From a virus: DNA of 64,000 nt. Numbering within the stretch: the first letter of the stretch is position 1; every line of letters starts with the position of its first letter. Under the pieces are notes generated by a model that saw only the letters and a list, made by a program, of their open reading frames with translations, was not told the DNA's origin and did no database searches. The position numbers and the translations under genes were made by a program. Location of the stretch: positions 27,795 through 91,794 of the IMG/VR virus record IMGVR_UViG_3300042368_001013. One strand, 5' to 3'. Positions 27,303 through 55,671 of this stretch are shown here, piece by piece.

Positions 27303-27953
27303 TTGAAAAATCCGTATTTTCAAAATTATGAGCCAGAACAAGATTTAGTAGAAGGAATAACAATTGAAATTATTCAAGCTACTGGAGTTGACTGCTATTA
27401 TATTCCTAGAGACTATCTTTCAATAGATAAAATATTTGGAGAAGATCCTGGTTCCTACTTTGACAATGCATATGTTTTAGAAATGTATTTACAATCATTT
27501 AAAGGGTTTGAAGGAAACGATGTTATCACTCAGTTTGGTTTGGAAATCAAAGATAAAGTAAATTTAGTTTTTGCTAGAAAAAGATTTAAACAAGAAGTTA
27601 CAAATAAAAATTCAGCACTAACGAGACCTCGTGAAGGAGATTTGATTTATTTTCCACCATCAAAGTCATTGTTTGAAATAAACTTTGTAGAACATGAAAA
27701 TCCATTTTATCCACTGGGAAGATTGTATTCATATTTTATAACAGCTGAACTCTTTACTTACAGTTACGAAAAACTTTCTACTTCTATAAATGCCGTTGAT
27801 CAGCTTGTAAATAATACTAGAGGATTCTCTGGAAGTACAATAATTCCATTGAATAACGGACTTGGGACTACTGCTGGCGTAAATGATGTTCTTCAAACTG
27901 AAGCTGCGGGGTACACATTTGATCCGAATAATCCATTTATTGATTGCGAGTAA
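27303..27953 (+). CDS. 14: gp14-like neck protein
   Basis: A 216-residue homologue of gp14 (256 in T4). Signature elements are EGITIEIIQATGVDCYYIPRDYLSIDKIFGED, then YLQSFKGFEG, FGLEIKD and PREGDLIYFPPSKSLFEINFVEHENPFYPLGR. No ATG precedes the conserved region; the start is a TTG 3 nt past the gp13 stop, preceded by AGGATAA. gp14 completes the neck and the portal-tail junction. Confidence 0.8.
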   Translation: MKNPYFQNYEPEQDLVEGITIEIIQATGVDCYYIPRDYLSIDKIFGEDPGSYFDNAYVLEMYLQSFKGFEGNDVITQFGLEIKDKVNLVFARKRFKQEVTNKNSALTRPREGDLIYFPPSKSLFEINFVEHENPFYPLGRLYSYFITAELFTYSYEKLSTSINAVDQLVNNTRGFSGSTIIPLNNGLGTTAGVNDVLQTEAAGYTFDPNNPFIDCE

Positions 27954-43501: not shown

Positions 43502-44137
43502 ATGATTATTGATTTGCGTGAAATTTCGGTTGTCTGGATAAATCTAGACTCAGCAAAAAAGAATGCTGAAACTATGCAAGAACGTTTTCACAAATTTGGT
43601 TTTAAAAATACACATAGAAAACCAGGTTTAATAATTCCACCACCTCCAAATACAGATAAATCGATAGCACATTTTAGGGGGTGTGGACAATCTCATATTG
43701 ACATTTTGGATGATACAAATTATTCAACACCATTGTTGATTTTAGAAGATGATGTTGAATTTTATGATAATTTTAATCCAGTAATTGAAGTACCAGATGA
43801 TGCTGATGGAATCTATCTTGGTATTTCACACGGCAATATTTACTATCAAACTGCAATGTACAATGAAAATTATTTAAGAATAAATGGTATTTTAGCTGCA
43901 CATGCCATTTTGTACATTACACCCAAATATAGGCAAGCTATGTCTGAAATTGGTAAATTTTGTTTATATGATTTAAATAAACCGTGGGATGTGGGTACTG
44001 CAGGTATTCAAAAAGAATATATGGTATTAACACCAAATAGTCCTATGATATATCAATCGGATGATAGGGAAAGTTCTAATAAATGGCAACGCCTTACTGA
44101 TCAACCTCTTAAAGTGAAAAATAATTTAGTATTATGA
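43502..44137 (+). CDS. GT25-like glycosyltransferase
   Basis: A 211-residue protein with the LPS-glycosyltransferase (GT25) pattern: VVWINLDSAKKNAETMQERF, then FRGCGQSHIDILDDT and LLILEDDVEF with the ExDD-type metal/sugar-nucleotide site. GT25 enzymes transfer galactose or other sugars to LPS or protein. First gene of the cassette, with promoter and GAAAGGA immediately upstream. Stop overlaps the next ATG (TATGATT). Donor and acceptor unknown. Confidence 0.75.
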   Translation: MIIDLREISVVWINLDSAKKNAETMQERFHKFGFKNTHRKPGLIIPPPPNTDKSIAHFRGCGQSHIDILDDTNYSTPLLILEDDVEFYDNFNPVIEVPDDADGIYLGISHGNIYYQTAMYNENYLRINGILAAHAILYITPKYRQAMSEIGKFCLYDLNKPWDVGTAGIQKEYMVLTPNSPMIYQSDDRESSNKWQRLTDQPLKVKNNLVL

Positions 44138-44919
44138 TTACATTTAAAACACTAGGTGTACATGGAAGAGCTGGCAATCAATTATTTCAATATGCTTGTT
44201 TATATTCAGTAGCAAAAAGAAATAATTATGAATTTGGTGTTCCATATAAAAATAAACACGAAAATCCATATTTTAATTTTGTTTTGCCTGAATATTTTAA
44301 AAATTTAAGTGCAAAAGATTGTTCTTATTATATGCCTCAATATTTGTATGAGCCCCCTTGTTGGGAATATAATGATTCTGTATTTAATGTAAAAGATAAT
44401 ACTGAAATACGAGGATATTTTCAAAGTGAAAAGTATTTTACAGATTACAAAGAAGATATTAAAAAAGAATTTACTTTTAAAGATGAAATATATGAAGAAT
44501 CTTTATATAAAAGAAACCAAATTAGCGATCCATTAATTGCCATTCATGTGCGCATCGGTGATTTTAAATTATTAAAAGGTAAACACCCAATCTGCGATGA
44601 ACAGTATTATTTACGTGCTTTAAGTTTATTACCACAAGATATTCCGTATATTATTTTTAGTGATACTCCATATGAAGTACATCACAGCTTAAAAACAAAT
44701 AGTCGTAATAAAAATTTAAATCAAAATTTAAATGAAAAAATGGACATGTGTTTAATGAGTATGTGTAATTATCATATTATAGCCAATAGTACATTTAGTT
44801 GGTGGGGAGCTTGGCTTTCAAATACCAATCAAGTAATTGCTCCAGCAAAATGGTTTGGAGATGAACTCGACATTCACAAGTGGTCTGACCTTTATTGTAA
44901 AAATTGGATTGTCATATGA
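44134..44919 (+). CDS. GT11-like alpha-1,2-fucosyltransferase
   Basis: A 261-residue GT-B glycosyltransferase of the GT11 family. Motifs are GRAGNQLFQYA (12-21), IHVRIGDF (137-144; family HxRxGDY) and NSTFSWWGAWLS (218-229), diagnostic for alpha-1,2-fucosyltransferases that use GDP-L-fucose. The cassette encodes the enzymes for GDP-fucose at its far end. The acceptor is unknown. Stop overlaps the next start. Confidence 0.85.
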   Translation: MITFKTLGVHGRAGNQLFQYACLYSVAKRNNYEFGVPYKNKHENPYFNFVLPEYFKNLSAKDCSYYMPQYLYEPPCWEYNDSVFNVKDNTEIRGYFQSEKYFTDYKEDIKKEFTFKDEIYEESLYKRNQISDPLIAIHVRIGDFKLLKGKHPICDEQYYLRALSLLPQDIPYIIFSDTPYEVHHSLKTNSRNKNLNQNLNEKMDMCLMSMCNYHIIANSTFSWWGAWLSNTNQVIAPAKWFGDELDIHKWSDLYCKNWIVI

Positions 44920-45737
44920 ATACATTAAATATTTTTACCAGTGCTTTTAATAATCACTCATGTTTGAAAAGTCCACCAAAATTATTTTCTTGGATTTTTA
45001 ATACATATCCAACAAACAATGCTCCCGTAATTTATTTTGACGATGCAATTTTTAGATATATGAATGATGGATATACCGGACCCAAATATGGTTGGTTGGG
45101 TGAGTCTTCGGAAATTATATCCTCCCTTATAATGGGAGTGACATCAAATAAAGATGTATTGAAGTTAAGATATAAAAATATTTTTACAAATGATCAAAGA
45201 ATTATAAAAATTGATCCAAAGTTTTTTATATACAATCCACCTGCATCTAATATGCCATGGGTAGATAAAGCAAGCATATATGAAAAAACAAAATTATGTT
45301 CATACATAACCAGCTTTAAACAATTTACTTCTGGGCACATTAAAAGAATGGAATTGTTTGAAAAATTAAAAAATGATTCTAGATTTGCAGACCACATTTA
45401 CGGTAGAGATTATAAATTTATACCCAACAAGTTAGATGGATTGAAGGATTACATGTTTTCTATAGTTGTAGAAAATAGCATATATCCAAAATATTATACA
45501 GAAAAAATAACAGACTGTTTTGCCACTGGAACGGTGCCTATATATTATGGTGACAAAAGCATTGGTGAAGATTTTAATAGTAAAGGTATAATTTTTATAG
45601 ATGATATGGAAACTTTTGATTTTCTTACACCAGAACTATATAAAGAATGTTTGCCATATGTAAAAGAAAATTACGAAAGAGTAAATAGTCTTACTACTGC
45701 TGATGATTGTATTTACAAGAGTGTGATGAATGATTAA
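44916..45737 (+). CDS. GT10-like fucosyltransferase A
   Basis: A 273-residue protein. The diagnostic GT10 (alpha-1,3/1,4-fucosyltransferase) donor site is FSIVVENSIYPKYYTEKITD, followed by TGTVPIYYG. The ATG at 44916 overlaps the preceding stop (ATATGA); four upstream in-frame codons are discounted. The N-terminal acceptor domain is not conserved. It should transfer fucose or a related 6-deoxy sugar from GDP. Next gene is a paralogue. Confidence 0.8.
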   Translation: MNTLNIFTSAFNNHSCLKSPPKLFSWIFNTYPTNNAPVIYFDDAIFRYMNDGYTGPKYGWLGESSEIISSLIMGVTSNKDVLKLRYKNIFTNDQRIIKIDPKFFIYNPPASNMPWVDKASIYEKTKLCSYITSFKQFTSGHIKRMELFEKLKNDSRFADHIYGRDYKFIPNKLDGLKDYMFSIVVENSIYPKYYTEKITDCFATGTVPIYYGDKSIGEDFNSKGIIFIDDMETFDFLTPELYKECLPYVKENYERVNSLTTADDCIYKSVMND

Positions 45738-46596
45738 ATTATCAATATACGGTTTTTGGCCAAACTTTAATTACGAAGATAACTTTTTTAAATCATTGTT
45801 CCAAGACATTTATGGAAATGATTTTTCATATACAACAAATCCGTATGAATCTAATTTATGTTTAATTGGTGAAAATTTAATTCCTCCGGGGTTAGATAGA
45901 TCAAAAACCAAATTGATATCGCATATAGCGGAGCCAAAAAACCCGTTCTATGACATTGCAGATTATCATTTTACATTTGATCCAACAGATTTGCCAAATG
46001 GAAATATTAGAATTCCTTTGTGGATGCTCTACATCAACAAATACAATTTAACAAGCGAACAATGCCCAGCTTTACCAGTTAATATAGATACCTTAACAAA
46101 CAATCAGTGGTTTAATCATCCAAAAACTGAATTTTGTGTGACTCCATTTTCTGCAGTACATGCAAATAGAATGGAATTTTGGCAAAAATTTAATCAATAC
46201 AAAAAGACCGATGGGTTTGGATTGCCATTTGGAAACGGAGATCAACAGAGAGATCAACTTAAAAAATATTTTGTAATTGCTCCATACAAATTTTGTATGG
46301 CGTATGAAAATACAAATAAACTTGGTTATGTCACAGAAAAAATACTACAAGCAAAAACTTCTGGATGCATCCCAATATATTGGGGTAGCGATCATGTCTT
46401 AAAGGATTTTAATCCAAATAGCTTTATCTATGTAAATAATTTTAACTCAATAAATGATGTGTTAGAATATGTTAAACGTGTAGACAATGACCCAAGTTTA
46501 TATGAATTGATTTATAAAAGTCCTATTTTTCATTACGATATTAATGAAAAATATGAAGAAATTAAAAGATTAATAAAGAAAACTATTTCAATATGA
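45730..46596 (+). CDS. GT10-like fucosyltransferase B
   Basis: A 288-residue second GT10 enzyme: KFCMAYENTNKLGYVTEKILQA (YENT 192-195, VTEK 201-204) then GCIPIYWGSDHV. The N-terminal half (LSIYGFWPNFNYEDNFF, NLCLIGENL) is also family-like. It overlaps the first GT10 gene by 8 nt. The two enzymes are divergent, so they probably make different linkages or use different donors, for example fucose and a 3,6-dideoxyhexose. Confidence 0.8.
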   Translation: MIKLSIYGFWPNFNYEDNFFKSLFQDIYGNDFSYTTNPYESNLCLIGENLIPPGLDRSKTKLISHIAEPKNPFYDIADYHFTFDPTDLPNGNIRIPLWMLYINKYNLTSEQCPALPVNIDTLTNNQWFNHPKTEFCVTPFSAVHANRMEFWQKFNQYKKTDGFGLPFGNGDQQRDQLKKYFVIAPYKFCMAYENTNKLGYVTEKILQAKTSGCIPIYWGSDHVLKDFNPNSFIYVNNFNSINDVLEYVKRVDNDPSLYELIYKSPIFHYDINEKYEEIKRLIKKTISI

Positions 46597-47348
46597 ATGT
46601 ACAAGTTATCACCTTACCGGAAGCAACGGAAAGACAAAGTAAAATAAAAAATAATTTTAACAACCACAATATTGGTTTTGATTTTAAAAGTGGAATAAAA
46701 TTAAATGAATGTTTTTTTATAGAAGAAAATGGAAAACATTTTGTTGTATGTGATAATATAAAATTGGAAATAAATGAAAATTTGCTTTTACAAAATACGA
46801 ATAGAAACTGGATTCGTTTTGGTGAAATAGCAGCCTACATAGCACATTATAAATTATGGAAAGAGTTTTTAAACTCAAATAACGAAATAGTTATTATATG
46901 CGAAGATGACGCAAACCCACAATCTGATTTGCTTTTTTTAAATTCTTTTGACTATTCTAATATTGATTTTTTAAATTTACAAAATGTAACTGCACACAAC
47001 CAACCAAAAATAAATTTGTACCGAGAACCATTTGTAAAAATAAGTAATAAACTTGTAGAATACAAAACACAGTTACCTATTTTGTGCGAAGGTTTGGCAG
47101 CATACTTAATTACTAAATCTGGAGCAAATAAACTGTGTTCTTACATTGAAGCCAACGGTTACGTTGGTCCTAATGACTGTATGATCACCAAATTGTGCCA
47201 AAATGGAATAATGAGTATTCATGCCCCCGTAGATGTTGAAAAGTGTTTTGGGTTAGATGCTGAAACTTATGAAACTTCTTATACACATTCCGGGGCATTT
47301 AAAATTTTTAAACAATTTAACCAAATGGTATTGCAAGTAAGGGAGTAA
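46593..47348 (+). CDS. GT25-like glycosyltransferase B
   Basis: A 251-residue protein with the GT25 features NVQVITLPEATERQSKIKNNF, WIRFGEIAAYIAHYKLWKEF and IVIICEDDANP (acidic metal site), and GLAAYLITKSGANKL near the end. Overlaps the previous stop by 4 nt. Related to the enzyme at 43502 but longer and more typical. Acceptor unknown. Confidence 0.75.
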   Translation: MNVQVITLPEATERQSKIKNNFNNHNIGFDFKSGIKLNECFFIEENGKHFVVCDNIKLEINENLLLQNTNRNWIRFGEIAAYIAHYKLWKEFLNSNNEIVIICEDDANPQSDLLFLNSFDYSNIDFLNLQNVTAHNQPKINLYREPFVKISNKLVEYKTQLPILCEGLAAYLITKSGANKLCSYIEANGYVGPNDCMITKLCQNGIMSIHAPVDVEKCFGLDAETYETSYTHSGAFKIFKQFNQMVLQVRE

Positions 47349-47349
47349 T

Positions 47350-48117
47350 ATGTCTTATCTTCTGATAGAAAAAAGAACTGGTGGTTTGATGTCCTGCTTC
47401 AATTTAATCGCAGCGAGTCTAAGTTATCTTTATGATAATCAAATAAACAATTTTTATTTTATTTGGAACAGCGCCACTTATCAAAATAATCCACATGACA
47501 ATTTATTTGATAAGTTTATTTTTAAACAAACCCAACCAAGCGGCACATCTCCTTGGTCAAAAGTTATTAATGTTTTTGAATTAAGCCACCATTTTTATGC
47601 TCCAGTCGTACCACAAGAAAAAGTTGTAAGAATACACAATATATTGCAATATTATCATTATTTTTCAAATCCAATATATCAAGAACTCTTCAATACAGTA
47701 CCAAATAAACCAAAAACATTGGGTGTCCACGTAAGAAGAACTGACCACGCTATTCACGGAGATATATTGCCGGATGAATACTATTTTGAAAAAATAGATG
47801 CCAATTTAAAAACCGGAAAATATGAAAATATATTTTTAGCTACTGACGAATATAAAATTGTAGATGCATTTAAAAACAAGTATGGTAATATGTTATTTAC
47901 AAATGAGAATATAACAAGAAGCAATAATGACGTAACTATTCCATTTTGTAATTATGAAGACAAAGACAAGCTAGCATTAGATATTTTTAAAGAAGGAATT
48001 GCTCTTTCTAGGTGTGACAAAATGATTTTTACTAGTAGCAATATACCGAATTACGTAAGGTTTTTAAGTCCAAACATGGATTGCGAACAGATAGATACTC
48101 ATATACAGTTTAGGTAA
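47350..48117 (+). CDS. NodZ/GT23-like fucosyltransferase-family protein
   Basis: A 255-residue protein with the GT-B O-/N-fucosyltransferase pattern: TLGVHVRRTDHAIHGD (residues 123-138), EYYFEKID, then NIFLATDEYKIVDAF and a late FTSSNIPNYVRF. This is typical of NodZ/GT23-like and GT11-like proteins, in which the HxRRTD arginine contacts GDP-fucose. Start 1 nt past the previous stop. Third candidate fucosyltransferase group in the cassette. Confidence 0.7.
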   Translation: MSYLLIEKRTGGLMSCFNLIAASLSYLYDNQINNFYFIWNSATYQNNPHDNLFDKFIFKQTQPSGTSPWSKVINVFELSHHFYAPVVPQEKVVRIHNILQYYHYFSNPIYQELFNTVPNKPKTLGVHVRRTDHAIHGDILPDEYYFEKIDANLKTGKYENIFLATDEYKIVDAFKNKYGNMLFTNENITRSNNDVTIPFCNYEDKDKLALDIFKEGIALSRCDKMIFTSSNIPNYVRFLSPNMDCEQIDTHIQFR

Positions 48118-48120
48118 TTT

Positions 48121-48687
48121 ATGAATAAAATAGAACATTTTTATAAAACTATCGGAGAAGATTGGTTTCCTTATACAAATTTATACAAATTTATGGTTGA
48201 AAGGTTTGACTCTGGATCTAAATTTGTAGAAGTTGGTTCGTGGAAAGGTAGAAGTGCTGCTTTTATGGCGGTAGAAATACATAACTCAGGGAAAAATATA
48301 CACTTTGATTGCGTAGATACATGGAAGGGATCCGGTAATGAAGATTATCACCAAAATGATCCAGCTGTTCAAAACAATTTGTTATATGAAACATTTTTAA
48401 AAAATACGGAAACCGTAAAACATATAATAAATCCTGTTAGAGCAACTTCAGTAGAGGCATCAAAGATGTATGAGGACAACAGTTTAGATTTTGTATTTAT
48501 TGATGCATGCCATTTATACGAATGCGTAAAGGAAGACATAGAACACTGGTATCCAAAAGTAAAAGTAGGCGGCATGATTGCAGGTCACGATTTTCATTAT
48601 CCTGAAGTACAAAAGGCAGTATTAGAAAAATTTGAAAATGTATTTTACGATCAGCCCGGTGATTGTTGGGTTTTACAAAAAAATTGA
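48121..48687 (+). CDS. SAM-dependent class I methyltransferase
   Basis: A 188-residue methyltransferase (Methyltransf_24 type). SAM-binding motif I is KFVEVGSWKGRSAAF (35-48), then FDCVDTWKGS, and the acidic LDFVFIDACHLYECVKEDI and GGMIAGHDFHYPEV. Such enzymes in polysaccharide clusters often methylate sugars or cap chains. Three nt after the NodZ-like gene. The substrate could be a deoxysugar made by the downstream genes; this is inference. Confidence 0.75.
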   Translation: MNKIEHFYKTIGEDWFPYTNLYKFMVERFDSGSKFVEVGSWKGRSAAFMAVEIHNSGKNIHFDCVDTWKGSGNEDYHQNDPAVQNNLLYETFLKNTETVKHIINPVRATSVEASKMYEDNSLDFVFIDACHLYECVKEDIEHWYPKVKVGGMIAGHDFHYPEVQKAVLEKFENVFYDQPGDCWVLQKN

Positions 48688-48693
48688 GGTCAC

Positions 48694-49581
48694 ATGCAGG
48701 AAGTACGTGGATTAATTTTTTATAGCAATGGACATAATGGTGATATACACTATTCTAGAAATTTTGTAAAAGATATTATGTCTCAAATGCCAATTCAAGC
48801 AGAATATAAATTTAATTGTTCCGCAAAATTATTAAAAGACATATTAAATTTATCTTTTAATAATTTTAATATCTTTCAATTTAATGATATGGAAATTTTA
48901 TACGACGAATCAACAAAATGTTTATTTGTCAATACGTGGGTTGGTTCTTCCAGAGCAAAATTTATTCAAAATGAAGTTGGTTGTTCTTTAACAGCAAATT
49001 ATAATAAATTTAAAGAAATATATTTTAATTTAAATTTGGAATTAAAGTCACCAGATTTTTACGTTCCAGATGTAAATTGGTCTAAGTATGACACCAGCTT
49101 TGTAGATGAATTTATATCAAAAAATGTATTTAAAAAATACATTTTAATAGCAAACGGAGAAGTGTTATCCGGCCAATCATCTTTTATTGATTTTAATCTT
49201 ATTGTTAAAAATTTATCTATTAAGTATACTGACGTTTGTTTTATTATGACAGATATTAAGAATAAAATATACCAACCAAATGTATTTTACACATCTGATT
49301 TTATTAAAACCGATGGTGGGGATTTAAATGAAATTGGTTACTTAAGCACTAAGGTTAATTTTATTATTGGTCGCGGGAGTGGTCCATTTTGTTTTGCTCA
49401 TAATAAAGATAATTTATTTGACAAAAATAAAAAGTTTTTGGCTATTACAAAATATAGAACTGATGGCCTATGGGCTTTACCAGAACAATTGCCCACAGAG
49501 CAAGCAAAACAACTTTGGACGAATATGTTTGACAACAACACAATTTATAGTATTATTTCAAAAGAAATAGAAAGCAATTAA
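48694..49581 (+). CDS. Probable GT-B-type protein (unknown)
   Basis: A 295-residue protein. FYSNGHNGDIHYSRNFVKDI at the start and KKYILIANGEVLSGQSSFIDFNLIVKNL, FIIGRGSGPFCFA late in the chain suggest a two-domain Rossmann (GT-B) fold as in heptosyltransferase-like enzymes (the GRGSGP loop would bind phosphate). No diagnostic family motif is certain. Seven nt after the methyltransferase, with GAGGTC as ribosome-binding site. Confidence 0.5.
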   Translation: MQEVRGLIFYSNGHNGDIHYSRNFVKDIMSQMPIQAEYKFNCSAKLLKDILNLSFNNFNIFQFNDMEILYDESTKCLFVNTWVGSSRAKFIQNEVGCSLTANYNKFKEIYFNLNLELKSPDFYVPDVNWSKYDTSFVDEFISKNVFKKYILIANGEVLSGQSSFIDFNLIVKNLSIKYTDVCFIMTDIKNKIYQPNVFYTSDFIKTDGGDLNEIGYLSTKVNFIIGRGSGPFCFAHNKDNLFDKNKKFLAITKYRTDGLWALPEQLPTEQAKQLWTNMFDNNTIYSIISKEIESN

Positions 49582-49582
49582 A

Positions 49583-49939
49583 ATGAATATTGACGTTGCA
49601 TTAAATTTAGAATTGATTATTAAAAATAAAGTCAATGAAATTTTAAACCCAAAAACCGGTCTTCCAAAATTACCAGTTGATTTAGCAGTATCTGATAATT
49701 TGGGAGAGGTAATTGAAAAACTTGTCATTCTTCATATTAGAACTTGGTTTTTAGAAGATATGGCAGGAGTAGCCAAAACTGACGCAGAACTGGCTGACAT
49801 CAAAAGAAAAGTAGACATTTGTTTTAAGCAAAAGCGACCCATGTATGTTCAAGCTATAAATAAAATGATAGATTCGGCCATCAAAGGTGAAAGATCTCTA
49901 CAAGAAGACAGTGTAAAAATTTATAAAAGTGTTGAGTAA
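49583..49939 (+). CDS. Small helical protein of glycan clusters (DUF4254-like)
   Basis: A 118-residue helical protein. LGEVIEKLVILHIRTWFLEDMAGVAKTDAELADIKRKVDICFKQKRPMY follows the pattern (LATIHxxLWxLED... IxxxKRxID) of small proteins, DUF4254-like, that accompany glycosyltransferase genes in bacteria and phages. Function unknown. Stop shares bases with the transketolase start (TAATG). Confidence 0.45.
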   Translation: MNIDVALNLELIIKNKVNEILNPKTGLPKLPVDLAVSDNLGEVIEKLVILHIRTWFLEDMAGVAKTDAELADIKRKVDICFKQKRPMYVQAINKMIDSAIKGERSLQEDSVKIYKSVE

Positions 49940-50664
49940 TGAAAAAAGATCTTATTGTTAAAATTTTAACATTAGCAAATAAAAAGAAAGAAGGGCATAT
50001 AGGAAGTTCTCTTTCAATTTTAGATATTTTGTTAGTGTTGTACAAAGACTATATCAATAAAAACAATAAATTTGTTTTGTCCAAGGGACACGCTTCCCTT
50101 GGACTTTTTGTTGTATTAGAATATTTTGGATTACTTGAAAGTGACTTAAACACATTTTGTGATTTTAATTCTGAATTTGGAGGACACCCCTGCAATAAAG
50201 TAAAACATGTAGAAACATCTACTGGATCTTTGGGGCATGGTTTACCAATAGCGGTTGGTATGGCTCTTGGAAATAAAATACAAAAGGTAGAAGGCAATGT
50301 TTATGTGTTAATTGGTGACGGCGAATCAAATGAGGGATCTGTATGGGAAGCCGCGATGTTGGCATCACATCACAAACTAAACAATCTTGTTTGTATTATG
50401 GATTATAATCACTCTGGAGATAGAGCAATACGTATTGATTCTGTTTATGAAAAATTTAAAGCTTTTGGCTGGGATTGTGTCGAAATAGATGGTCATAGTG
50501 AAGCACAAATAAAATCTGCACTTAGCGTCACAAATAAACCACTTTTTATTTTGGCTAATACAATAAAAGGAAAAGGTATTAAGGTTATGGAAAATAATCC
50601 AGAGTGGCACCACAAAGCACCAAATGACGAAGAATTAAAATTGTTTATTGAAGAATTAAGATGA
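49939..50664 (+). CDS. Transketolase-like N-terminal (TPP-binding) subunit
   Basis: A 241-residue transketolase N-terminal half. KEGHIGSSLSILDILLVLY, KFVLSKGHAS, GSLGHGLPIAVGMALG and the TPP motif GDGESNEGSVWEAAM...NNLVCIMDYN (Gly-Asp-Gly at 126-128) are all present. With the next gene it makes a split TPP enzyme. Beside a ColD-type dehydratase and an SDR, it may attach a two-carbon (ketol) unit to a keto-deoxysugar rather than serve the pentose phosphate pathway. That is inference. Confidence 0.85.
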   Translation: MKKDLIVKILTLANKKKEGHIGSSLSILDILLVLYKDYINKNNKFVLSKGHASLGLFVVLEYFGLLESDLNTFCDFNSEFGGHPCNKVKHVETSTGSLGHGLPIAVGMALGNKIQKVEGNVYVLIGDGESNEGSVWEAAMLASHHKLNNLVCIMDYNHSGDRAIRIDSVYEKFKAFGWDCVEIDGHSEAQIKSALSVTNKPLFILANTIKGKGIKVMENNPEWHHKAPNDEELKLFIEELR

Positions 50665-51536
50665 GAAAACAGTTTACAAAGACTTTACAGAATATACTTT
50701 ATTCAAATAATAAGACCTGTCTTCTTTTAGGAGATATTGGAGTATTTGGTTTCAAGAATGAGCTGACTAACTTGCCAGACAGGGTTTACAATATAGGAAT
50801 TCTAGAGCAATCTACTATAGGAACGGCAGCTGGCTTGGCTAAAACTGGACTGATACCCTTTGTTCACACGATTGCACCATTTTTGGTTGAAAGAAGTCTT
50901 GAACAATTAAAAGTAGACTTTGGTTATCAATGTTTAAATGGTAATTTTATAAGTGTAGGTGCATCGTATGATTACGCATCTCTTGGTTGCACACATCACT
51001 GCCCCGGAGATATTATGTGTTTAATGTCCATTCCAAACATGGAAATTGTTTGTCCGGGAACATCAAAAGAGTTTGATAGTTTGATTACACAGTCTTATAA
51101 CAATGGAAATCCAACGTATTTTAGATTAAGCGAATACGAAAATGATTTGGACAATATTACGGAATTTGGGAAAGCAAAGCTAATAAAAAAAGGATCTAAA
51201 GCAACAATTGTTTGTTTTGGAAATATGTTAAAAAATATTTTAAAGGCAGTTGAAGATGTAGACGTTACTGTATTATATTACAATACTATAAAACCATTTG
51301 ATCATAAACTACTTCTAAATAATTTTAGTGAAACAATAATAGTATGTGAACCGTTTTATGAAGGTAGTGCCAATATTTTAATAACAAAAAGTTTAGAAAG
51401 CAAATCATATAAGCTTTTTAATATTGGTATTCCACATAAATTTTTAACCAACTATGGTAAAAAAGAGGATCATGATTATTATTTAAACTTAGATGAAAAA
51501 TCTTTAAAAGAAAGAATATTGAAGTGCTTGATATAA
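50661..51536 (+). CDS. Transketolase-like C-terminal subunit
   Basis: A 291-residue subunit with the pyrimidine-binding and C-terminal domains of transketolase: LLGDIGVFGFKNE, NIGILEQSTIGTAAGLAKTGLIPFVHTIAPFLVERSLEQLKVDFG (catalytic Glu of ILEQ) and SYDYASLGCTHHCPGDI (His pair). It overlaps the N-terminal subunit by 4 nt, implying equal amounts. C-terminal part (ETIIVCEPFYEGSANILITKSL) is like DXS/TK domain III. Confidence 0.85.
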   Translation: MRKQFTKTLQNILYSNNKTCLLLGDIGVFGFKNELTNLPDRVYNIGILEQSTIGTAAGLAKTGLIPFVHTIAPFLVERSLEQLKVDFGYQCLNGNFISVGASYDYASLGCTHHCPGDIMCLMSIPNMEIVCPGTSKEFDSLITQSYNNGNPTYFRLSEYENDLDNITEFGKAKLIKKGSKATIVCFGNMLKNILKAVEDVDVTVLYYNTIKPFDHKLLLNNFSETIIVCEPFYEGSANILITKSLESKSYKLFNIGIPHKFLTNYGKKEDHDYYLNLDEKSLKERILKCLI

Positions 51537-52546
51537 TTTATAATGATGGAAAATTAAGTTACCAAAACATAAACATAAATTTTTCTTTATTAAAAGATAA
51601 AAAAGTTTTAATAACTGGTGCTACTGGATTAATAGGTTTGCACATTTTATCAATATTAAAAACGGCACAACTAGATTATAATATTAAAATTTTTTGTTGG
51701 GTTACTGGTCCAATTGACCCAAAGATTAGCCCAATCTTCAATAACTGTGAGTTACTTGTTGGTGATTTGACAAATATTAATCAAGATATTGAAACAAATT
51801 TTAATAAACACTTTGATTTGATAATCCATTCGGCTGGCTACGCCCAACCACAAAAATTTATCGGAAACAAAGTAAATACAATACAATTAAATACTTCAGC
51901 TATTATTGATTTGTTTAAATTATTAAAAGACAAAGGTACATTTGTTTTTTGCAGCACCAGTGAAATTTATAGTGGATTGATTAAAGAAAATATTTTTGAG
52001 CAAGAAATAGGTACTACTACACCAGAGCACCCAAGAGCCTGCTACATCGAAAGTAAACGCTGTGGGGAGACTATATGTCACTCTTTTGCTGAACGTGGGT
52101 ATTCGGTCAAGATAGCGCGCATAAGCCTAGCTTATGGTCCCGGAGCCAGAGCAAACGACACCAGAGTTATGCAGAACATAATCGACAAAGCGATAAAAGA
52201 AAACAAAATAGAACTGTTAGACAGTGGATCTTCTATTAGAACTTATTGTTATGCTGCTGACATAGCAGAAATGTTATGGAATATTTCTTTACTTGGCAAA
52301 AAAACTGTGTATAATATAGCGGGAATGTCTAGAATCACAATTAAAGAATTGGCTGAAAAAGTTGCCAATAAACTAAATTGTGAATTAATAATTCCTGCAG
52401 ATGATAAATTTAGTTTATCAGGAAACCCATCATTAGTAAATTTAAATATTGAAAAATATATGATAGAATTTAATAAAAAAAATTTTACTAATTTTGAAGA
52501 TGGTCTTGATAAAACCATACAATGGCAAAAATATATTTTAAAATAA
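51524..52546 (+). CDS. NAD-dependent extended SDR (epimerase/dehydratase family)
   Basis: A 340-residue extended SDR. Rossmann motif GATGLIG at 32-38, FCSTSEIYSG with the Ser/Thr, and YIESK (Tyr174, Lys178) in HPRACYIESKRCGET, reminiscent of UDP-glucuronate decarboxylase-type enzymes. It begins with GTG inside the transketolase gene end. The likely job is reduction, epimerisation or decarboxylation of a nucleotide sugar, perhaps the product of the transketolase or ColD-like enzyme. The segment around YxxxK (about 52018-52200) is GC-rich. Confidence 0.75.
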   Translation: MLDIIYNDGKLSYQNININFSLLKDKKVLITGATGLIGLHILSILKTAQLDYNIKIFCWVTGPIDPKISPIFNNCELLVGDLTNINQDIETNFNKHFDLIIHSAGYAQPQKFIGNKVNTIQLNTSAIIDLFKLLKDKGTFVFCSTSEIYSGLIKENIFEQEIGTTTPEHPRACYIESKRCGETICHSFAERGYSVKIARISLAYGPGARANDTRVMQNIIDKAIKENKIELLDSGSSIRTYCYAADIAEMLWNISLLGKKTVYNIAGMSRITIKELAEKVANKLNCELIIPADDKFSLSGNPSLVNLNIEKYMIEFNKKNFTNFEDGLDKTIQWQKYILK

Positions 52547-52547
52547 C

Positions 52548-53720
52548 ATGTTAAGCAAACCAATTAAATTAGTAAAAGACACAATCACACATCAAGAAAT
52601 TGATCAGCTGTGTGACTGGTTAAAAACGTACCCACAACTTACTAAAGGTAAGTTAACAGAAGAATTTGAACAGTTGTGGTCAGACTGGTTGGGAGTAAAG
52701 TACTCTGTATTTGTAAATTCAGGTTCTTCAGCAAATTTAGCAATGCTTTATGCACTTAAAGTTGCCAACAGATTGAAGAATAATAAAATTATTCTTCCCT
52801 GTGTATCATGGGTCACCACTGTAAGCCCCGCAATCCAATTTGGTATGGAACCAATTTTGTGTGATACAGACAAAGATGGATTAGGATTAGATGTTGAGTA
52901 TTTTGAAAAACTTTGTAAAGAACACAATCCAGCATGTGTAATGTTGGTACATGTATTGGGTGTGCCAAATAAGTTAAATGAAATTTTAGATATATGCAAA
53001 AAGTATGACGTAATTTTGTTAGAAGATTCATGTGAAAGCGTTGGAACGTTGTATAATAGTAAACAAACAGGAACGTTTGGTATTATGTCTTCGTTTTCAA
53101 CTTATTTTGGCCATCACTTTTCAACTATAGAAGGTGGTTTTGTCTGTACGAATGATTTTGAATTGTATGAGATATTAAAATCAATTAGGTCGCACGGATG
53201 GAGTAGAGACTTATCAGTTGAAACAAAAGAAAAACTTCAAAAAGAAAACAACATAGACAATTTTAGAAATTTTTATACTTTTTATTATCCAGGATTTAAT
53301 TTAAGAGCAACAGATGTACAAGCTTTTCTTGGCATAAACCAGTTAAAAACTTTAAATACAAAAAATCAAAAAAGATACAACAATCTTGTACTTTACGACT
53401 CATTAATTAAAAATAATTATTGGAAGTTAAAATATGAAGGATTTGTTAGCAATTTTGCATATCCAATAATCCATCCCAATAAAAATAAAATTGCTCAAAA
53501 TTTACAAAACAACAACATTGAATGCAGACCACTTATTTGTGGAAGCATGTCAAGACAACCATTTTTTTACAAGCAATATGGTTTAAAACAATATCCATTC
53601 TCAGACGTTGTACATGATTATGGCTTGTACTTGCCAAACAATCCAGACATGACAGAAGAGGATATTGTTTATATTTCAAATATAGTAAACGAAACAATTA
53701 ATAAGGATACCAATGAATAA
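52548..53720 (+). CDS. ColD-like GDP-4-keto-6-deoxymannose 3-dehydratase (PLP/PMP)
   Basis: A 390-residue DegT/DnrJ-family (aspartate aminotransferase fold) enzyme. The catalytic Lys is replaced: FSTYFGHHFSTIEGGF with His189-His190, as in ColD and E1/RfbH-type 3-dehydratases. The E1 iron-sulfur Cys pattern (CxC-x7-C) is absent, so ColD is the nearer match. ColD removes the C3 hydroxyl of GDP-4-keto-6-deoxymannose, the first step to GDP-colitose. The substrate would come from the GDP-mannose 4,6-dehydratase two genes away. The next gene overlaps by 8 nt. Confidence 0.8.
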   Translation: MLSKPIKLVKDTITHQEIDQLCDWLKTYPQLTKGKLTEEFEQLWSDWLGVKYSVFVNSGSSANLAMLYALKVANRLKNNKIILPCVSWVTTVSPAIQFGMEPILCDTDKDGLGLDVEYFEKLCKEHNPACVMLVHVLGVPNKLNEILDICKKYDVILLEDSCESVGTLYNSKQTGTFGIMSSFSTYFGHHFSTIEGGFVCTNDFELYEILKSIRSHGWSRDLSVETKEKLQKENNIDNFRNFYTFYYPGFNLRATDVQAFLGINQLKTLNTKNQKRYNNLVLYDSLIKNNYWKLKYEGFVSNFAYPIIHPNKNKIAQNLQNNNIECRPLICGSMSRQPFFYKQYGLKQYPFSDVVHDYGLYLPNNPDMTEEDIVYISNIVNETINKDTNE

Positions 53721-54657
53721 AAATGCAAAAATATTTGTAGCTGGCCATAGAGGTTTAATTGGCTCTGCTATTGTCAGAAAGCTTGAAGAACAAGGATATA
53801 CTAACATAATCAAAAGAACCAGACAAGAAATGGATCTCAGAGATCAACTAGCCGTTTGGCATTTTTTCCAAAAAGAAAAACCAGAATATGTATTTCTTTG
53901 TGCCGCAAAAGTAGGTGGAATAGGTTGGAACAAAGAGTGTCCAGCAGAATTTACTTATGATAATTTGCAAATTCAAAATAATGTAATTCATAGTGCAAGT
54001 TTATCTGGCACCAAAAAACTTTTGTTTTTGGGTTCAGCGTGTATCTATCCAAAAATTACACCACAGCCTATTAAAGAAGAATATCTTTTAACTGGTGAGT
54101 TAGAAGAAACAAATGCAGGATATGCATTGGCAAAAATTGTTGGTTTAAAAATGTGTCAATATTATAAACAACAATACGGTTTCAATTGCATTTCATTGAT
54201 GCCCGCAAATGCATACGGAATTAATGATAATTTTAATATTCAAAAATGTCACGTAATTCCAGCGTTGATTAGAAAATTTATTAATGCAAAAGAAAACAAT
54301 CATCCAACAGTAGAGTGTTTTGGTGATGGTACACCAACAAGAGAATTTATTTGTTCTGACGATATGGCTGACGCATCTGTTTATCTAATGAACAATTATG
54401 ATGGCTCTGATATTATCAATGTTGGTACTGGAATGGATGTAACAATAAAAGAATTGGCAGAAACCATCAAAGAAAAGATAGGTTATACTGGTGAAATCGT
54501 ATGGGACACTACTAAACCAAATGGAACACCTCTAAGAAAACTTAGTAATGATAGGTTAAAGAGTTTGGGATGGTCAGCAAAAATTAATTTGAGCGAAGGA
54601 ATTTCTCGCACCATTAAATGGTATATGGATAATAAAGAAACATATGATAGAAATTAA
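53713..54657 (+). CDS. fcl: GDP-L-fucose synthase-like SDR
   Basis: A 314-residue extended SDR with GHRGLIGSAIV (11-21), FLGSACIYPKITPQPIKEEYLLTGELEETNAGYALAKI (Tyr137, Lys141), MPANAYGINDNFN and the late PNGTPLRKLSNDRLKSLGW. These are typical of GDP-4-keto-6-deoxymannose epimerase/reductase (Fcl/WcaG), which yields GDP-L-fucose. ColC (GDP-colitose synthase) is homologous and could be the actual activity, as a ColD-like gene is adjacent. Either way it completes the pathway from GDP-mannose. Confidence 0.85.
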   Translation: MNKNAKIFVAGHRGLIGSAIVRKLEEQGYTNIIKRTRQEMDLRDQLAVWHFFQKEKPEYVFLCAAKVGGIGWNKECPAEFTYDNLQIQNNVIHSASLSGTKKLLFLGSACIYPKITPQPIKEEYLLTGELEETNAGYALAKIVGLKMCQYYKQQYGFNCISLMPANAYGINDNFNIQKCHVIPALIRKFINAKENNHPTVECFGDGTPTREFICSDDMADASVYLMNNYDGSDIINVGTGMDVTIKELAETIKEKIGYTGEIVWDTTKPNGTPLRKLSNDRLKSLGWSAKINLSEGISRTIKWYMDNKETYDRN

Positions 54658-54669
54658 TAAAGGTTTTAT

Positions 54670-55671
54670 ATGAAAAAAGCATTAATTATCGGTGCAAACG
54701 GTCAAGACGCATCATATCTTGCGGAGTTTCTGCTAGATAAAAAATATGAAGTTCATGGTACAATTCGTAGAAATTCCGTACCAGAATCACAAACAACCAG
54801 AATACAATATCTTCATGATAAAAATTTAATTAAATTGCATTACGCAGATTTAACAGATCCAATTAGTATTGAATCTGTAATCCAGAGATTGCAGCCAGAA
54901 GAAATTTATCATTTGGCAGCACAATCTCACGTTCAGATATCGTTTGATTTACCACACTATACACTTGAGGTCAATGGCGGTGGTACTCTTTCTGTTCTTG
55001 AGGCAGTCAGACGATTTTCTCCAGAATCAAAGGTATACCACGCCGCAACTTCAGAAATGTTTGGTAATGCTAAAGATGCTGACGGATATCAAAGAGAAAC
55101 AACTCCCATGATTCCAGTTAGCCCATATGGATGTTCAAAATTATATGCCCATACTTTATGCAGAAATTACAGCCAAGCATATGGTATTTTTGCTTGTTCT
55201 GGAATTTTATTTAACCACGAATCTCCAAGACGCGGCATTAACTTTGTCACAAACAAAACAGCTTTAGAAGCAGCTAAAATTAAATTAGGATTATCTAATA
55301 AGTTGGTTTTAGGGAATCTTGGATCACAACGTGATTGGGGGCATGCCAAAGATTATGTAAAGGCAATGTGGTTAATGCTTCAACGACCATCTCCCGATAG
55401 CTATGTAATCGCAACAGGAGAAACCAGGTCTGTTTGTGAAATGGTAAATTACGTTTTTAATAGACTTAATTTAGATCCTAAAAAGTATATTATAACAGAT
55501 GAAAAATATTGCAGACCCGAAGAATTGCATTATTTAAAAGGTGATGCTACAAAAGCAAAAACAGAACTTAATTGGGCACCAGAAATTTCATTTTATTCTA
55601 TGATGGATGAAATGGTAGATCATTGGATTTCTGTATTACAGAATAAAAAACTTGATTTTACAATTGTATAA
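54670..55671 (+). CDS. gmd: GDP-mannose 4,6-dehydratase
   Basis: A 333-residue SDR with GANGQDASYLAEFLL (8-22), HGTIRRNS, HAATSEMFGNA, SPYGCSKLYAH (Tyr153, Lys157) and NHESPRRGINFVTNK, diagnostic for GMD. It turns GDP-mannose into GDP-4-keto-6-deoxymannose, the branch point to fucose, colitose and perosamine. AAAGG lies before the ATG. Last gene of the sugar cassette; the phage relies on the host for GDP-mannose. Confidence 0.9.
   Translation: MKKALIIGANGQDASYLAEFLLDKKYEVHGTIRRNSVPESQTTRIQYLHDKNLIKLHYADLTDPISIESVIQRLQPEEIYHLAAQSHVQISFDLPHYTLEVNGGGTLSVLEAVRRFSPESKVYHAATSEMFGNAKDADGYQRETTPMIPVSPYGCSKLYAHTLCRNYSQAYGIFACSGILFNHESPRRGINFVTNKTALEAAKIKLGLSNKLVLGNLGSQRDWGHAKDYVKAMWLMLQRPSPDSYVIATGETRSVCEMVNYVFNRLNLDPKKYIITDEKYCRPEELHYLKGDATKAKTELNWAPEISFYSMMDEMVDHWISVLQNKKLDFTIV

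Follow-up and report, generated by a model that had tools for sequence, protein, structure and literature searches.

The virus record IMGVR_UViG_3300042368_001013 of the IMG/VR database carries a block of six genes that probably directs the synthesis of two GDP-sugars from GDP-mannose, one of them a branched sugar predicted to be built by a split transketolase. The window that we analysed comprises 64,000 of the 91,794 bases of this record (positions 27,795 to 91,794), and all coordinates below refer to the window. The record is that of a T4-like phage, with PHROGs for portal, major head protein, terminase, clamp, clamp loader and gp46/47 and a gp23 that is 54% identical to cyanophage gp23. 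The sequence-only reading of this DNA had grouped gmd, fcl, a ColD-like dehydratase, an extended short-chain dehydrogenase/reductase (SDR) and a split transketolase into one operon for fucose and a 3,6-dideoxy, perhaps branched, sugar.

Our annotation bore out the gene set. Six intact open reading frames (ORFs) lie on the plus strand, and neighbours neither overlap nor lie apart by more than 13 bases; the six encode the N-terminal, thiamine diphosphate (ThDP)-binding subunit of a split transketolase (TKN, 49939..50664), its pyrimidine-binding and C-terminal subunit (TKC, 50661..51536, overlapping TKN by 4 bases), the extended SDR (51524..52546), a ColD-type nucleotide-sugar 3-dehydratase (52548..53720), the GDP-L-fucose synthase Fcl (53713..54657) and the GDP-mannose 4,6-dehydratase Gmd (54670..55671). 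An assembly artefact does not account for the gene order, since the same run recurred in the related contigs L005-L009 (51-94% protein identity). Gene identities, catalytic residues, linkage and the remodelling of a substrate pocket were all read from the sequences themselves.

In the proposed pathway, Gmd would convert GDP-mannose of the host into GDP-4-keto-6-deoxymannose, part of which Fcl would turn into GDP-L-fucose for the GT10- and GT11-type transferases of the same gene run. From the remainder, the ColD-type enzyme would remove the 3-OH to give GDP-4-keto-3,6-dideoxymannose, and TKN/TKC would take a hydroxyacetyl unit (two carbons) from a ketol donor and attach it at the C4 ketone, so that C4 becomes a tertiary alcohol bearing a CH2OH-CO- branch. 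The SDR, with NAD(P)H, would then reduce the branch ketone to a 1,2-dihydroxyethyl group; the product would be GDP-3,6-dideoxy-4-C-(1,2-dihydroxyethyl)hexose, and the branched sugar would probably be placed on the host lipopolysaccharide or the virion. We infer the substrates, the donor, the branch position, the stereochemistry and the final glycan. The evidence presented below supports this interpretation, which in outline is that of the sequence-only reading.

A split transketolase with a remodelled pocket

TKN was clearly transketolase-like. Its best NCBIfam model was the transketolase model (6e-65; 219.6 bits versus 42 bits for dxs), it matched Pfam Transketolase_N (9e-34), and its best solved match was 6yak, the N chain of the Carboxydothermus split transketolase (4e-72). 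TKC contained the Pfam domains Transket_pyr and Transketolase_C and was closest in sequence to 6yaj, the C chain of the split transketolase; its AlphaFold model (predicted local distance difference test score, 94.5) matched both DXS and split transketolase in a Foldseek search. The pair retained the ThDP motif, the catalytic Glu411 and the donor-side His residues of split-gene transketolases. When residues were mapped on the Salmonella TktA reference and given E. coli-type numbers, the donor and cofactor residues H26 (63/65), H66 (64/65), H100 (64/65), H261 (63/65), D155, E160 and N185 were kept in 63-65 of 65 TKN relatives; H66 and H100 are the donor-side histidines of transketolases. Of the residues that bind ThDP and donor, E411 and H473 were conserved in 57 of 57 TKC proteins of the block, and R358 was also retained.

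The phosphate pocket of TKC (S385, H461, D469 and R520) was altered almost throughout. In the window TKC, S385 is replaced by F29, H461 by G100, D469 by L108, R520 by E158 and F434 by I71, and across the block we found Phe or Tyr for S385 in most members, Gly for H461 in 57/57, Leu for D469 in 55/57, Glu for R520 in 48/57 and Ile for F434 in 57/57. Most metabolic split transketolases (n = 61), by contrast, kept these residues (S385 in 55; H461, D469 and R520 in 53 each; F434 in 53-55). A TKC tree placed 58 block rows and 62 metabolic rows on either side of a branch with 100/100 support. Because the phosphate pocket is lost, the enzyme fits an acceptor other than a sugar phosphate, and the donor may be no phosphorylated ketose. 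Judged by these residues, TKN/TKC looks like a glycan-type enzyme that is no longer suited to central metabolism.

Reductase and dehydratases

The SDR (Pfam Epimerase, 1e-33) has its catalytic YxxxK motif at Y174/K178. In both sequence and fold, its nearest solved relative was the CDP-6-D-glucitol synthase HS5.17 (8v4g/8v4h; about 28% identity), an NADPH reductase of the C2 ketone in CDP-6-fructose, which is a CH2OH-CO- (hydroxyacetyl) group. Two features of HS5.17 were present in the window SDR: E147 and R171, which were invariant in 33 relatives, aligned with the substrate-contacting E140 and R164 of HS5.17, and the model had an N-terminal helix (residues 2-15) before the Rossmann fold, like one described as unique to HS5.17. 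By analogy, the window SDR is predicted to reduce the hydroxyacetyl ketone of the branch, the role that the sequence-only reading had given it.

The 390-amino acid (aa) protein encoded at 52548-53720 matched Pfam DegT_DnrJ_EryC1 (3e-64) and was 36% identical to ColD of E. coli O111; its best solved match was also a ColD (206 bits, versus 132 bits for E1/RfbH). The earlier proposal that it is a dehydratase held: His189-His190 occupies the position of the aminotransferase Lys, and all block members have His in place of the catalytic Lys, a change that sets 3-dehydratases apart from aminotransferases (PMC8987622). An aminotransferase identity was rejected on the missing Lys, and an E1/RfbH (CDP 3-dehydrase) identity on the length (390 aa versus about 437 aa) and the absence of the CxC Fe-S motif, which the RfbH-type proteins of two bacterial loci (L340 and L341) do have. 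Its linkage to gmd supports GDP-4-keto-6-deoxymannose as the substrate on which it would act. A GHH motif was present in gp211 of Synechococcus phage ACG-2014f (L123:6968-8161; NC_047714.1), which is annotated as an aminotransferase and is probably a 3-dehydratase.

Gmd was assigned to the gmd family, by far its best (TIGR01472, 7e-115; 383.8 bits, under the 415-bit equivalog cut-off), and was 44% identical to E. coli K-12 Gmd. The best NCBIfam family of Fcl was GDPFucSynFcl (NF047922, 5e-130; 433.5 bits, under the 500-bit equivalog cut-off). We rejected a ColC identity for Fcl, which was closer to E. coli K-12 Fcl (48%) than to O111 ColC (37%). A CDP-linked pathway was likewise rejected: none of 33 viral records had a CDP-glucose 4,6-dehydratase above the cut-off, and gmd was present in many viral records.

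Linkage in viral contigs

A search of viral contigs with an alignment of transketolase-adjacent SDRs returned 80 loci, 62 of which were non-redundant at 90% identity and were examined with 6-kb flanks, beyond which any partner would go unseen. These IMG/VR contigs are predicted to be viral, and many had T4-type genes in the flanks. A ThDP enzyme pair stood beside the SDR in 61 of the 62 loci, being of transketolase type in 51 and of pyruvate-dehydrogenase-E1 type (hereafter E1-type) in 10; one locus had neither. A control search with Gmd gave 77 loci that lack this SDR, and 6 of them had a ThDP pair of any kind (Fisher p 3e-31). The E1-type pairs filled the same slot before the SDR as the transketolase pairs; they were recognised by reading that slot, with confirmation by Pfam, the very short pairs having escaped BLAST with the window proteins.

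Nine loci had very short E1-type pairs of about 200 and 178 aa (L144:4869-5995, L147, L160, L162, L169, L175, L177, L181 and L186), whose second chain matched only Transket_pyr, the usual C-terminal domain apparently being missing. An E1-type pair with Gmd and a DegT protein, and without this SDR, occurred in L258, L260, L262, L274 and L277, where another reductase may carry out the reduction step. L152, L153, L161 and L164 contained the SDR, Gmd, Fcl and a His-type DegT protein (GHT motif), with no ThDP enzyme recognised nearby.

The neighbours of the transketolase-SDR pair fell into two contexts. A His-type DegT protein was near 21 of the 51 transketolase-type loci, after the SDR in 12 and before TKN in 9, and a methyltransferase-like protein, c0, was found in 24; 23 loci had c0 only, 20 the ColD-type protein only, and one had both (Fisher p 3e-7). 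These contexts indicate that the pair works in at least two settings and that ColD supplies the acceptor only in the first, which is the context of the window phage. The c0 protein is a conserved 300-aa protein with weak methyltransferase matches, located after or near the SDR (L010, L015, L017, L018, L020-L023, L028, L030-L032, L034-L036, L038-L041, L043, L045 and L048).

No close relative of TKC or the SDR was found in 50,697 GenBank phage records, the best identities being about 30% and 29%, respectively, over most of the protein. The transketolase matches in the phage collection (a Salmonella houtenae contig and short Listeria and gut contigs without annotation) were labelled as phage but looked cellular, and they were not counted as phage evidence.

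Bacterial loci

The sequence-only reading had suggested a search of bacterial O-antigen loci for the same gene block. Pelagibacter genomes contained ColD, an RmlC-like epimerase, Gmd, TKN and TKC (L064, L082 and L092), followed by the SDR in L092; L064 and L082 end near TKC. L331, which turned up when genomes of the same family were searched, has ColD, an RmlC-like protein, TKN, TKC and the SDR. Fcl was not in the stretch of the three Pelagibacter loci, so that the branch pathway is separated from fucose there. Two other bacterial loci, L340 and L341, had a single-chain ThDP enzyme of YerE-like type (TPP_enzyme_N/M/C) next to a distant member of the SDR family (about 27% identical); each had an RfbH-type protein, and L341 had a ColD-type protein as well. 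Among the loci, this architecture was seen only in these two, and the window pair (Transketolase_N, Transket_pyr/C) does not have it. Judging from 399 genomes searched within a single phylum, the SDR family is rare in bacteria.

One SDR family thus has three classes of ThDP enzyme as neighbours, in many cases together with a His-type 3-dehydratase, and this arrangement is best explained by one shared chemistry, namely the addition of two carbons to a keto sugar and reduction of the branch. It seems reasonably likely that a modular cassette is common to phages and some marine bacteria: a single SDR family would be combined with exchangeable transketolase-, E1- or YerE-type ThDP enzymes to put two-carbon branches on 4-keto nucleotide sugars.

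Alternative explanations

Several observations weigh against the pathway as drawn. The SDR query came from transketolase-adjacent sequences, which may inflate the fraction of the 51 transketolase-type loci; query bias cannot explain the 10 E1-type loci. The second-nearest relative of the SDR was UDP-xylose synthase, so its assignment to an HS5.17-like function is not exclusive. In profile and in fold, the DXS scores of TKC came close to its transketolase scores. The phosphate pocket of transketolases serves donor and acceptor alike, and with its loss the donor may be hydroxypyruvate, a free ketose or another compound. Finally, no His-type DegT protein was nearby in 30 of the 51 transketolase-type loci, which means that the pair needs no 3-deoxy acceptor and that the acceptor in the window phage is deduced from its gene context.

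The last of these points, together with the DXS-like scores of TKC, would also suit a different two-carbon branch, either an acetyl unit from pyruvate (giving a yersiniose-like 1-hydroxyethyl group) or a branch on a 6-deoxy-4-keto sugar. The E1-type pairs that occupy the same slot point the same way, since their characterised relatives use pyruvate and are reported to attach acetyl branches to keto sugars (PMC12247030, PMC4753412). Against an acetyl branch stand the transketolase character of TKN, with H66 and H100 kept, and the hydroxyacetyl ketone handled by the nearest solved relative of the SDR. We regard this variant as possible but doubtful.

Synthesis of GDP-L-fucose and GDP-L-colitose alone, with Fcl doubling as ColC and the transketolase and SDR serving an unrelated nucleotide-linked open-chain sugar or heptose precursor, is improbable. 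Viral contigs commonly had Gmd, a ColD-type protein and a reductase resembling Fcl or ColC, with no ThDP enzymes (L217, L241, L254, L255, L273, L290, L296 and others), sets that are likely to be phage colitose-type pathways, and a relative of the SDR has an open-chain nucleotide sugar as its substrate. However, no nucleotidyltransferase of family PF00483 was found in the 91.8-kb record, no heptose genes came to notice among those genes of the run that were scanned, and the transketolase-SDR pair and the His-type DegT protein were neighbours in two gene orders and also in SAR11-type loci whose stretch lacks Fcl.

Least probable of all is that the transketolase is an ordinary auxiliary metabolic gene for the host pentose phosphate pathway that merely lies beside GDP-colitose/fucose genes: this is the usual reading of virus-encoded transketolases (PMC4053976, PMC12783922), and all checked catalytic residues are retained in TKN, but a purely central-metabolic role, which would have undone the earlier proposal, is made unlikely by the replaced phosphate pocket, the separate clade, the near-obligate SDR partner (adjoining transketolase pairs in 51 of 62 loci) and the occurrence in Pelagibacter ColD-Gmd blocks.

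Upstream genes of the run

Upstream of the six genes, the same run contains a series of transferase genes, all on the plus strand. The first gene of the run encodes a weakly matching GT25-like protein (43502..44137; PF01755, 0.002, below the cut-off); it is followed by a GT11 family transferase (44134..44919; PF01531, 3e-20), two GT10 family transferases (44904..45737 and 45730..46596; PF00852, 6e-9 and 2e-18), a GT25 family transferase (46593..47348; PF01755, 4e-19), a FUT8/NodZ-like transferase (47350..48117; PF19745, 2e-5, a weak match below the cut-off) and a class I methyltransferase (48121..48687; PF13578, 9e-20). GT10 and GT11 are fucosyltransferase families that use GDP-fucose; the predicted GDP-fucose branch therefore has obvious users. 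Two ORFs directly upstream of TKN (48694-49581 and 49583-49939) had no family match and were conserved in L005-L009. A terminator-like element, a 10-pair hairpin followed by a T run, was located within the TKN coding sequence (50079-50104), where it may have arisen by chance. Scans for promoter motifs and T4 late promoters gave no excess worth reporting (87 versus 77.8 expected and 13 versus 12.05, respectively).

Comparison with known systems

The clade that includes TKN/TKC looks like a glycan enzyme, raising the possibility that some viral "transketolase" genes build surface sugars and that the pentose-phosphate reading (PMC4053976, PMC12783922) is wrong for part of the data. If the proposed pathway is correct, a transketolase of this kind would be new to surface glycans and also the first that is GDP-linked, and ketoreduction in yersiniose-type sugars would fall to the SDR family, the ketoreductase of yersiniose having been reported as uncharacterised in 2016 (PMC4753412). 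The pathway would thus give candidates for the ketone-accepting transketolase (proposed in PMC12247030) and for the branch ketoreductase (PMC4753412), both small soluble enzymes and hence directly testable.

The combination of genes had been put forward as undescribed in phages. We found no description of phage colitose or branched-sugar genes, or of this combination, in the open-access literature; the gene set is not, however, special to the window phage. Loci without ColD also have the transketolase-SDR pair, in many cases with a methyltransferase-like gene in its place, and phage gmd, fcl and fucosyltransferase sets have already been described (PMC9602691). Cyanophage S-SCSM1 is likewise T4-like with Gmd, Fcl and fucosyltransferases, and a passage of that report that lists its cell-wall genes does not name ColD, the transketolase pair or this SDR (PMC9602691).

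The colitose pathway of E. coli O111 (gmd, colD and colC) uses the same Gmd and ColD steps to GDP-4-keto-3,6-dideoxymannose; in the window, the third enzyme is Fcl-like rather than ColC, and the transketolase and SDR are additional. HS5.17 of C. jejuni shares the extra N-terminal helix and the aligned Glu and Arg with the SDR at about 28% identity, but its substrate is a CDP open-chain sugar, unlike the GDP-linked pathway proposed here.

A close parallel in chemistry is the yersiniose A pathway of Yersinia pseudotuberculosis O:VI (E1/RfbH and YerE), in which a ThDP enzyme likewise adds two carbons at C4 of a 4-keto-3,6-dideoxy nucleotide sugar before the branch is reduced (PMC12247030, PMC4753412). 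That pathway is CDP-linked, with an Fe-S 3-dehydratase and a single-chain, acetolactate-synthase-type enzyme that takes pyruvate as the donor, whereas the window pathway would be GDP-linked, with a ColD-type dehydratase and a split transketolase. AviB1/AviB2, Pau11/Pau12 and KbDH alpha/beta are also two-subunit ThDP enzymes that add two-carbon branches to keto sugars (PMC12247030, PMC4753412); they differ from the window pair in being of the alpha-keto acid dehydrogenase type, in transferring an acetyl unit and in serving actinobacterial antibiotics. Split transketolases of the miharamycin/amipurimycin type in Streptomyces, which we liken to TKN/TKC by their description, have likewise been proposed to transfer a hydroxyacetyl unit to a keto sugar (PMC12247030, section 2.3); the sequences listed there are all from Streptomyces, none having been assayed, and they have no GDP-sugar, ColD or phage context. 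ThDP-made branched sugars are thus known with YerE-type and E1-type enzymes, and a transketolase role has been proposed for Streptomyces nucleoside antibiotics and never assayed (PMC12247030). Phage gmd and fcl and the principle of ThDP-branched sugars are known; the transketolase-type, GDP-linked, phage-borne version would be new.

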